A DNA stretch of 10,986 nt from Monoraphidium neglectum (taxonomy: Eukaryota > Chlorophyta > Chlorophyceae > Sphaeropleales > Selenastraceae). The notes below the pieces were generated by a model that ran no database searches, had not been told where the DNA came from, and saw only the letters and a program-made list of their open reading frames with translations. This document shows, piece by piece, positions 3,781 to 10,719 of the stretch. The stretch lies in assembly GCF_000611645.1 (NCBI RefSeq), contig NW_014012414.1, forward strand, positions 5,410 to 16,395, read 5' to 3'. The translations under genes were made by a program, and so were the position numbers. The first letter of the stretch is position 1. Each line of letters opens with the position of its first letter.

Positions 3781-4853
3781 TCAGCCAAAGATGATCTGGC
3801 TTGTGCCGCCTGGGGGCGCAACCACGCGGCTGGAGTTCTTGTCTGTCAAAAAGTTGCCGACATTCTGGCCTGCATCGAGAGAGCAGAGGACACCGTGCGG
3901 CCGGGTGGCACGTGCAAAGCCGTGGTTGAGCTCGTAGGTTGCACAGGCTGACGGCTCTTGCATGTCACCTTGGATTAGCGCACAATACAGCAGAGTCCGT
4001 CCCAGCCGAAGGCCGCTTCTCCTCACCGCTGGGGCGCGCGTAGTTGTTGTTGGCCCTGGACTCGGAGCCCACGCTCAGCGCTCCGGGCGGCGGGCCCGGC
4101 CTCCCCGCGGGCAGGCCGGCGATCGCCGCCGGCGACAGCGGCGCAGCCTGCTTGCTCCGTGGCGAGGGCGCATTCTCAGCGGCGGCGGAGGACGCGTCGC
4201 CGAAGACAATGCTTGTGGCGCCGCCGGGGGGCGCGAGGACGCGGCTGCTGTTCCTGTCAGTCATAAAGTTGCCGACGTTCTGGCCTACAAGGGGGTGGGC
4301 AAGGGGCTCCATTCAGTGGTGGGGCGGCTCTCTTGCCCGCCATGCATGCTTCTAGAACCCAGCAGCCACCCTGCTATGCACCCACTCTCTGGAAAATACA
4401 TCGCCGCACCCACCAACTACCTGATGGGCGTGAATAGTTGTTCTTGGCAAAGCCCTGCGCGACGTCGGCTGAGTTGGTGCCAGCAACTGTGTTGATGACA
4501 AGGTCTTCCCCGGTCTCATTCTTCATGGAGCTGCAGAGGTGGGTGAATACATGAACAGTAATCACATCCATGAGTAAGGCGGGCGCTGATTGTGTACAAG
4601 GGCGGAATCGCACCGCAACGCCACAGCATGGTGATCTGGGCTGTGTGCACGGCGCACCCGCTGGCCAGAGCAAAGACGCCCCCTCCTGCCCCCGATGCAC
4701 TTACAAATCCCCTGTTTCGAGCATGTGCTCCCTGACGCGCTCGGCCAGCTGCTCCTTGCCGCCCGCGGGGCTGATGCCGCGCGCCCTGCACTGGATGCGC
4801 AGGTCCTTCAGCAGCACCTGCTTCACAGCCCTGTCAATCTCCTCCGGGCTCAT
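3781..4853 (-). CDS. SAP-domain protein with two SPIRAL1/Jupiter(HN1)-like repeats
   Basis: Four exons, 4853-4705, 4530-4421, 4284-4027 and 3869-3781, join at phases 2, 1 and 1 into one frame of 201 residues ending in TGA. Donors are GTAAGT, GTAGTT and GTGAGG; acceptors are GCAG, GTAG and GCAG. The ATG follows GCAGCC, a good eukaryotic start context. Residues about 14-48 look like a SAP motif (LLKDLRIQCRARGIS, then a Gly-Lys turn and EQLAERVREHM), a DNA/chromatin-binding helix pair. Residues 80-115 and 166-201 are two copies of NNYxRPSGQNVGNFxTD[RK] followed by NSSRVxAPPGG and ending in FG. The first half resembles the C-terminal motif of plant SPIRAL1 microtubule proteins (NNYARAEGQNTGNFLTDR); NSSRVLxPPGG resembles metazoan Jupiter/HN1. 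A Pro/Ala/Ser linker joins the copies. Microtubule or chromatin binding is inferred, not shown. The last repeat ends at the protein's C-terminus, as in SPIRAL1. Confidence 0.85.
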
Positions 4854-5444
4854 GGCTGCGCGCACGCGCATGCATGGAGCCAGGGAGTGCTTGATGTTGG
4901 GAAAAGCCCGCCAAGCATGTGTTTTTTGCCCTCGGCCCATTCGCAAAGCGCGAAAACCCCAATATTCCGTAGTACGATCCAAACCAGCTCATAGTCACCC
5001 GCATGGGCGCACCTGTTGCAACCTTCGTTCGAATTCAGGGGCGGGTGGCCAGAAGCACGGTCTACGTGGCTTGAAGAAAGATGTTGGAAGAAGCTGATGT
5101 TATTGTGGTCAAGCGATTGTAGACGTGCACTTGTAGCTGCAGGGCCATCCCTTTGGCGGCCCGCACCTGCTTCCCTGCTGCCCCCTGGGCAGCTGCTGCC
5201 GTTTCGCGTTCAAGTGCGCGGGTCAGCAGCTACTCATACTGTCACTTCGCTGCACGCGCCAAAGCCTGTGAGGCAATACAGGCATAGGCAGCTTTCATTT
5301 TGCCTCTAGTGCGGTTTGAACCCTTGGATCCGAACTATGATGGGCACAGTACGGTAGTGCATTCTGCACTGAAGCACATTCGTGCAATGCAACAAGCCAC
5401 CACACAGGTATATGCGTTCGCCGTTGCTGGGACAATTCGCCCTT
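4854..5444. other. Intergenic region upstream of the SAP/SPIRAL1-like gene, no gene seen
   Basis: This separates two minus-strand genes and should hold the 3' UTR of the membrane-protein gene and the promoter and 5' UTR of the SAP/SPIRAL1-like gene. I see no TATA box close to the 4853 start and no TGTAA on the minus strand. No exon or hairpin stands out. Confidence 0.5.
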
Positions 5445-8856: not shown

Positions 8857-10719
8857 ATGCAAACTCTTGGAAGAATGCGGCAGGGAGCAGCCTCCCTGCC
8901 GAGATCAGTGCTGCCACGACCTGCAGTGCGCATGAGTGCAGTCCATCCCAAGCATAGGCAGCTCTTGCAATGGTGAGGAATACAATGAGACTGAAGCTGT
9001 CGCGTGTCTCGCTGCCTTGGACGTCACTGACCGCGTCCATCGTTACACAGGCGCCGGCTGTCCACGAACGACGCCGCTCCACAGCCTGTGATTGACCCCA
9101 TGACTGCAACAATCGATGAGGTGGGCCGTTGCGCACCAGCGCATCGATCGCACGCCCCCACCGCCGGTCCGCTGGCCGCCAACAAAGTCAGCGGCTCCCG
9201 AGCGCCGCGGCGCGACCCTAGCACCGCACCGAAGGCAGCCCCTCGCCCGCGCCGCGACTGCAGGACAGCAAGTCCACTCGGAAGATGCGCGAGGAGATGC
9301 TCAGGCCGCTGCGGACGGCGCTGACGGAGGCGATCATGAGGCATACCAAGGCGACAGGCGTTCGCGAGGCGCTCGAGGCCGAGGTGAGGAGCGCGGGGCC
9401 GCGCCCTGCCCCGGCAATAGCGCGCCGCTGGCTGCGGCCCCGCGCTCCTCACCTCGGCCTCGAGCGGCTGCGCTCCACACCATGCGCGCACAGCAGCAGC
9501 GGCCGCCAGCTCTCCGGCGGCCGCTGAGCCAGCGCCCGCCCGCACACCCGCGCAGCCGCCTCGTTGCGCCGCGGCCGAACGGCAGCCCGCCCCCGCCCGC
9601 CACCGCCTCGGCTCAACCGTCGCCGCCACCGCCGCCGCCGCGTGCACTGCGTGCGTGCGTGCGTGCACGCTCTTGCTCCCGCGTCAGGTTTGTGTGCTGT
9701 TCGACCGGGCCATCCAAGCGGAGGGCGGCGCGGACGTGAACGTGGAGGATGTGGCGGCGGCAGCGATGCAGGCGGTGGGGGGCGCGCTCAAGGACGAGGT
9801 CGAGGCGGCGGCCGTGGTGGAAGCCACCAAGCAGGCGCTCGCGGCGACCCTCAAGTCGCTGCAGGCGCTGAGCCCGGAGCCCGCGGACTTTGAGAGCGAC
9901 GCGCGCGTGGAGGAGGAGGTCGCCGCCGCCGTCGCCGACGCGACGGCGAGCGTCGACGGCACCGATGGGGGCACGCCCGGCGCGGCGACGCTGGCGAGCG
10001 TGGACGGCGTGGCCATGCGGTCGCTGTCTGAGTCGATGCAGCGCGTGGATGCGCTGCTCGGGTCCGACAGCGCCGCCGCCTCGTCCGACGCCGCGCCCGG
10101 CGACGCGCCCAGGGCGCCGCCCGCCCCCAGCCCCGCCGCCGTCGCCGCCGCCGCCAAGGCGGCGGCCGACGCGAAGCAGCGCAACCGCTGGGTGGTCGTC
10201 GGGCTCGTGGCCGCGGTCGCGTTCGCCGCGTCGGCTTTCATCAAGTCGCCGCTCGGCGCGTCGGCGGTCGCGGCGCTGCAGTCGCTGGCGCAGCCGCTGC
10301 TGGACAAGCTGGGGCCGATCCACGTCGGGGACGCGGAGCGCGGGCTGCTGGAGACGATCTACCTGTTGCTGACCAGCATAGTGTGCGTGCCGGCGGTCTG
10401 CAAGCTCATCCCCGGCGGCAGCCCGGTGCTGGGTTACCTGGTGAGCGGTCCCTCGGTGTGCGGCTCGCTGTGGGGTGGGGCGGGGCGGCCGGAGACGCAT
10501 CGGCGGCGCGGGGCTTGCTGGCTACAGTCGGTGGACGGGAGCGGGCATGTCACGGGCGCGGGGGGGCAGGGCCAGATGCTGCCAGACTTCTGCAGAGCTC
10601 TTCTGGGCTGGCTGGTCCCGTTGGTAGTCCTGCCGACGCGTCGCTGCCGCTGCCGCGCGTAGATCGGGGGTGCCCTGGTGGGGCCTCACGCCCTCAACAT
10701 CATCTCAGACGTCCACCAG
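8857..10719 (+). CDS. KEA: Chloroplast K+/H+ antiporter of the KEA (Kef/CPA2) family, N-terminal part
   Basis: Exons 8857-8972, 9051-9120, 9264-9383, 9688-10440 and 10663-10719 join at phases 2, 0, 0 and 0 into 372 residues; the gene continues past the window. Donors are GTGAGG, GTGGGC, GTGAGG, GTGAGC and GTGGGC; acceptors all end in AG. The first exon is a classic plastid transit peptide: Arg/Ser/Ala-rich, no acidic residue, with AVRMSA near residue 27 as a likely cleavage area. Residues 63-102 are charged and helical; about 110-170 are Ala-rich helix; an acidic and Pro/Ala linker follows. Hydrophobic helices lie at about 270-288 (WVVVGLVAAVAFAASAFI) and 325-343 (TIYLLLTSIVCVPAVCKLI). Then comes PGGSPVLGYLIGGALVGP, the Kef/KEA signature, and ALNIISDVHQ. 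KEA1/KEA2 in plants exchange K+ for H+ at the inner envelope. The N-domain is shorter than I recall for land-plant KEA1/2. The ion-binding Asp and RCK/KTN domain would lie downstream, outside the window. Confidence 0.9.
8878..8901. repeat. 10-bp perfect stem, 4-base loop, inside the KEA transit-peptide exon
   Basis: Arms CGGCAGGGAG (8878-8887) and CTCCCTGCCG (8892-8901) with loop CAGC. It begins 21 bases after the A of the KEA start codon, so the mRNA would carry a GC-rich hairpin at the very start of the coding region. Confidence 0.8.
9370..9466. repeat. 33-bp perfect inverted repeat across the exon 3/intron 3 donor of KEA
   Basis: The left arm, 9370-9402, starts in exon 3 and covers the GAG|GTGAGG donor at 9383/9384. 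The right arm, 9434-9466, is its exact reverse complement and lies in intron 3. The spacer is 31 bases. A transcript could fold the donor into a very stable GC-rich stem. It looks like an inverted duplication of the exon end. Confidence 0.95.

Follow-up and report, generated by a model that had tools for sequence, protein, structure and literature searches.

A SAP domain paired with SPIRAL1 repeats in green algae: analysis of the Monoraphidium neglectum gene MNEG_7059

In a stretch of 10,986 nucleotides (nt) from the chlorophyte Monoraphidium neglectum (Sphaeropleales; contig NW_014012414.1, positions 5,410-16,395, forward strand), hereafter called the window, the gene MNEG_7059 encodes a protein in which an N-terminal SAP domain, a type of domain that frequently binds DNA or RNA, precedes two SPIRAL1 repeats. 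The architecture is widespread among green algae and undescribed in the open-access papers found; databases already label parts of it. The SPIRAL1 repeat has been studied as a microtubule module of land plants; in numerous green algae it occurs together with SAP, in any of three domain orders. The comparison covered 162 relatives, and each protein search listed its best 120 matches (of 279, 621 and 985), to which the word "listed" refers throughout.

Gene structure

MNEG_7059 is a real gene of four exons on the minus strand, and its coding span is exactly 3781-4853. The spliced frame of 606 nt encodes 201 amino acids (aa), and all three introns begin with GT and end with AG. The public prediction (P0001, 207 aa) contains the same 201/201 residues and starts six codons further upstream. 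As most full-length aligned relatives begin near the second Met, 4853 was taken as the start. The following features were assigned in window coordinates:

3781..4853, minus strand: coding span of MNEG_7059, 201 aa (from splicing and the public prediction; public start 18 nt upstream, at 4871)
4705..4853, minus strand: exon 1, N-terminal SAP domain; ends after residue 49 (intron 1 in phase 2)
4725..4808, minus strand: Pfam SAP match, residues 16-43
4531..4704, minus strand: intron 1, 174 nt, phase 2, GT-AG
4421..4530, minus strand: exon 2, linker and start of repeat 1, through NNYSRPS (from splicing)
4285..4420, minus strand: intron 2, 136 nt, phase 1, GT-AG, in the codon for G between RPS and GQN of repeat 1
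4027..4284, minus strand: exon 3, 258 nt, with a phase 1 intron on either side; rest of repeat 1 (GQNVGNF...FG), linker, and NNNYARPS of repeat 2
3870..4026, minus strand: intron 3, 157 nt, phase 1, GT-AG, in the equivalent codon of repeat 2
3781..3869, minus strand: exon 4, rest of repeat 2 (GQNVGNF...FG), then the TGA stop (from splicing)
4199..4445, minus strand: SPIRAL1 repeat 1, residues 79-115, interrupted by intron 2 (repeat profile)
3784..4051, minus strand: SPIRAL1 repeat 2, residues 165-201, interrupted by intron 3 (repeat profile)

Introns 2 and 3 are both in phase 1 and interrupt the matching codon of each repeat (NYSRPS/GQNVGN and NYARPS/GQNVGN, with the slash marking the intron). 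The two repeats are identical in 28 of 37 residues and, on the DNA level, in 83 of 111 positions. From the equal phases and positions of the introns together with the identical residues, we infer that the repeats arose by internal duplication of an exon-intron unit. In the M. neglectum paralogue MNEG_1902 (P0006; contig C198:17600-19800), exons for SAP and for a linker are followed by a first repeat, which is likewise split just before QNVGNF; the predicted product has one good repeat only, and the repeat profile sees no second.

An additional Gln (QQNVGNF) occurs in 20 of the 162 relatives, e.g. P0002, P0006, P0009 and P0025 (repeat GQQNVGNF), exactly at the point at which the repeats of MNEG_7059 are interrupted by introns 2 and 3. 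A splice site that slid by one codon is our guess.

Two SPIRAL1 repeats

Judged by their sequence, both repeats are SPIRAL1 repeats (NNYxRxxGQNxGNFxTDRxSxxVxxxPGG). A repeat profile built from 320 repeat units of the 162 relatives matched all 120 listed proteins of the search with Arabidopsis SPIRAL1 (weakest E 8.6e-4 for a million sequences). When algal and land-plant repeats were compared profile against profile, they aligned over 36 columns with a probability of 99.6 and an E of 8.9e-25. Shuffled relatives were matched neither by the repeat profile nor by the SAP profile (0/1410 each).

An earlier sequence-only reading of the window had proposed two repeats, which were confirmed at residues 79-115 and 165-201, and had described them as mixing the plant SPIRAL1 motif with the animal Jupiter/HN1 motif. 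They are not such a mixture: the APGGGSS part is already present in the repeat of land plants (NNYxRxxGQNTGNFLTDRPSTKVHAAPGGGSSL), and the supposed Jupiter portion is simply the latter half of a SPIRAL1 repeat.

The SAP head

The same reading had placed a SAP-like motif at about residues 14-48. In profile searches, Pfam SAP (PF02037) matched residues 16-43, above the curated cut-off of 23.9 bits when residues 1-50 were searched alone (25.5 bits, E 9.7e-6) and below it with the whole protein (21.6 bits, E 1.6e-4). Of the listed relatives, 96/120 matched Pfam SAP at E <= 0.1 (best 3.1e-8). Among ten proteins scanned, SAP was above the cut-off in P0003, P0131, P0156, P0086 and P0040 and under it in P0122 (21.9 bits). 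P0025 gave no Pfam match whatever at E <= 1, though its head aligns with the heads of its relatives.

In the AlphaFold model of P0001, the predicted local distance difference test (pLDDT) score is 92-96 in the residue blocks 11-60, 76 in the two adjoining blocks and 47-64 in the rest, with helices at residues 9-17, 21-31 and 39-53. The N-terminus is predicted with confidence to be a helical SAP fold (helix, extended loop, helix), and the remainder is predicted to be largely disordered. The best matches among solved structures were mostly SAP domains; those titled as such were Hcc-1, E1B-AP5, SF3B2 and a rice SUMO ligase, and we take PIAS-1, 3'hExo, FAN1 and DEK to be SAP domains too. A search of the PDB by sequence returned the Hcc-1 SAP domain as sole match (residues 12-47), which at E 1.2 is not significant.

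For the analysis of basic positions we used a SAP profile whose seed of 102 blocks was chosen by a pattern requiring two of three Arg. The Arg residues of LRxxxRxR are conserved in 126, 127 and 118 of the 127 SAP domains found with this profile, and in 24, 25 and 16 of the 25 domains outside the seed. Three further K/R positions of the SAP block are kept in 117, 113 and 125 of the 127.

Architecture among relatives

SAP precedes a SPIRAL1 repeat in 127 of the 162 relatives, but in 0/120 of the listed matches of the SPIRAL1 search; those relatives that bear a name are almost all from green algae. With R for a repeat, the architectures are SAP-R-R (101), SAP-R-R-R (15), SAP-R (3), R-R-SAP-R (7), R-SAP-R (1) and no SAP (35). 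Eight of the carriers thus depart from the order with SAP in front. A SAP profile built without these eight still found SAP in 8/8 of them (E <= 2.3e-7), and the distance from SAP to the next repeat is 16-51 residues (median 27) in all 127 carriers. That the pairing persists through changes of order suggests that the SAP domain and the repeats work together.

Among the named carriers are Chlorophyceae, Trebouxiophyceae (for instance Helicosporidium), Bryopsis, Ulva, a pedinophyte and Nephroselmis; three lineages were checked. No streptophyte alga was among the named matches listed.

Several other arrangements and occurrences were observed. P0129, P0131, P0132, P0135, P0137, P0143 and P0153 have two divergent leading repeats, then SAP, then a standard repeat; the divergent leading repeat resembles SSNAYANGxDQNCGNVITDRPSTRLHAPPGG, and P0129 represents 109 member sequences. 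The pelagophyte protein P0157 has three SPIRAL1-type repeats and lacks SAP, and its repeats are like the leading repeats of the P0129 group. A protein with SAP and repeats (P0123) comes from a record of the acoel worm Convolutriloba macropyga and resembles the MMETSP protein P0122; it may derive from an algal symbiont, which we assume this worm to carry.

In public records, several relatives are already named "SAP domain-containing protein" or "SPIRAL1", and the precomputed database domains of Raphidocelis P0003 are SAP and JUPITER. No description of the family was found in the open-access searches made, which included two Chlamydomonas gene identifiers. The architecture, unfamiliar to the earlier reader, is commonplace among green algae. 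In the one open-access paper containing both "SPIRAL1" and "Jupiter", Jupiter is an author name.

Relation to Jupiter and HN1

The Pfam profile JUPITER (PF17054) matched 49/120 listed relatives at E <= 0.1. Among the ten proteins scanned it was found in two, P0122 (30.0 bits, over the cut-off of 27) and P0003 (25.2 bits). It gave no match in the MNEG_7059 protein at E <= 10, and at E <= 1 it missed all of 55 SPIRAL1 proteins from land plants. In the reverse direction, the algal repeat profile scored 21.0 bits against fly Jupiter, the sequence of which was entered by hand (best of 2000 shuffles 8.5). This match covers profile positions 20-38 only (~19 residues). In all three matches checked for position (P0003, P0122 and fly Jupiter), the likeness lies in the second half of the repeat, and the algal APPGGxS repeats match Jupiter better than land-plant repeats do. 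The land-plant profile scored 7.8 bits against fly Jupiter, a value reached by 1/2000 shuffles (best shuffle 11.4), and for this reason no direct link between land-plant SPIRAL1 and Jupiter is claimed here.

For the second half of the repeat, common descent with Jupiter appears likelier than chance, although a motif this short could have converged. The earlier proposal of one ancient family uniting SPIRAL1 with Jupiter is accordingly upheld in part: the 49 relatives and P0122 speak for it, and the land-plant proteins, MNEG_7059 itself and the short matching region against it. With the algal sequences as intermediates, a relation can be argued for; on the land-plant proteins by themselves it was not apparent here. 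Searches of the M. neglectum genome with the JUPITER and NUSAP profiles gave no match and are uninformative, because control genomes were equally blank.

A bolder extension, which we regard as improbable, is that the repeats of SPIRAL1 and of Jupiter/JPT form a single ancient module, acting at the taxane site in the interior of the microtubule, with the algal APPGGxS repeats as bridge and the SAP head making the protein a lumen-anchored nucleic-acid tether or limiting its entry. In an excerpt of a review from 2026, JPT2 appears as a taxane-sensitive protein of the lumen, with PPGGK/S motifs predicted to fit a luminal pocket (PMC13406575). In the same excerpt these motifs are placed in the C-terminal part, and JPT1/2 are also listed with outer-lattice repeats (PMC13406575), which weakens the luminal interpretation. 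Against it stands also that in fly Jupiter our profile picks out the N-terminal copy, the C-terminal PPGG scoring only 1.2 bits.

Proposed function and alternative explanations

We tentatively propose, with a rough probability of 0.45, that the product of MNEG_7059 is a SPIRAL1-type microtubule-associated protein of green algae whose SAP head tethers nucleic acid, with chromatin during mitosis as the likeliest target. In the disordered C-terminal part, the two SPIRAL1 repeats would bind to tubulin and stabilise microtubules or bundle them, as homology to SPIRAL1 suggests. Two repeats instead of the one in land plants may confer higher avidity or enable one molecule to bridge two tubulin sites. 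The SAP domain would fold on its own as a head and hold the tail, bound to microtubules, close to nucleic acid; this part, like the mitotic role, is drawn by analogy only. The layout would be that of animal NuSAP1, for which such a chromatin tether is proposed, and would have been reached independently.

The SAP head could equally bind RNA or a protein, and both options lead to alternatives. Possible, though rather doubtful, is a plain SPIRAL1-type stabiliser of cortical microtubules or plus ends, in which the SAP-fold head is a protein-protein, dimerising or tubulin-contact module that never meets nucleic acid. The listed SPIRAL1-search matches manage with a repeat and no SAP, and spr1 mutants show abnormal cortical microtubule arrays according to an excerpt of PMC9959322. 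Two further observations favour such a stabiliser and weigh against a chromatin tether: a simple nuclear-import pattern was found in only 1/162 relatives, and the median net charge of the SAP block is just +2 among relatives. The strong conservation of the basic SAP positions speaks for the tether instead, as do the structural matches, which are largely SAP domains, though a common fold proves no function. An RNA-microtubule adaptor, with the head binding RNA and the repeats carrying or anchoring it on microtubules, seems to us unlikely.

The suspicion that the SAP exon is part of a neighbouring gene could draw on the three introns inferred in the window and on the 35/162 relatives without SAP. 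However, SAP and repeats occur together in 13/13 listed relatives with transcript labels (TSA, MMETSP, Trinity), namely P0011, P0012, P0014, P0020, P0021, P0028, P0039, P0042, P0044, P0086, P0101, P0122 and P0145; the label of P0126, a relative without SAP, is not classifiable as genome or transcript. The paralogue on another contig also keeps the order of SAP exon, linker exon and repeat exon, and the splice sites are canonical. A two-gene artefact, which the sequence-only reading had named as the outcome that would overturn it, is thus contradicted by the relatives, and we consider it extremely improbable. A cilium-specific role seems less likely, given that Helicosporidium, Coccomyxa and Monoraphidium, which are not known to form flagellated cells, have relatives of the protein.

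Other features of the window

Scans with NCBIfam (a bacterial and archaeal library) and with Rfam gave no match, and Pfam found nothing at E <= 0.1 on eight neighbouring frames. Long TG/GT microsatellites lie at 678-760 and 1633-1809, amid long frames on both strands. An open frame of 413 aa with a hydrophobic stretch is present at 9421-10662 on the plus strand and has no Pfam match at E <= 0.1. Its hydrophobic stretch is reminiscent of plastid potassium antiporters.

Comparison with known systems

With land-plant SPIRAL1 (SPR1, SP1L), the protein shares the repeat NNYxRxxGQNxGNFxTDRxSxxVxxxPGGxS. The land-plant proteins differ in having a single repeat in 119/120 and no SAP in 120/120 of the listed matches. 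They differ also in their N-terminus, for which an excerpt of PMC9959322 describes a GG(G/H)(Q)SSLxYLFG direct repeat. The SSLxYLFG-type stretch is largely invariant at the N-terminus of 55 aligned land-plant proteins, and a GG..SSLxYLF stretch is present in 120/120 listed, whereas only two of the 162 algal relatives have a counterpart (P0096 and P0156), N-terminal only in P0156. The MNEG_7059 protein lacks it and has SAP at its N-terminus instead. Jupiter/HN1 (JPT1, JPT2) and the algal repeats have SSRVLxPPGGxSxxxFG in common, but the NNYxRxxGQNxGNF half is unmatched in fly Jupiter. The green-algal records Chlamydomonas CHLRE_09g394065 (P0025) and CHLRE_11g467576 (P0040) and Raphidocelis Rsub_08389 (P0003) belong to the same family, with a SAP-like head and repeats, and records of this type differ in having two or three repeats.

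The obvious known parallel, which the sequence-only reading did not name, is NuSAP1, the animal nucleolar and spindle-associated protein. According to an excerpt of PMC10650578, it likewise unites an N-terminal SAP domain with a region that binds microtubules; single changes reduce its association with chromatin when they lie in SAP, and its association with microtubules when they lie in the microtubule-binding domain. In the same excerpt NuSAP1 carries an import signal beside the microtubule domain (PMC10650578), unlike the MNEG_7059 protein, which has no such pattern. Pfam NUSAP (PF16006) matched neither this protein (E <= 10) nor the 120 listed relatives (E <= 0.1). With two genes of the family, Chlamydomonas offers a tractable system for asking if a NuSAP-like connection of chromatin to microtubules arose in algae.
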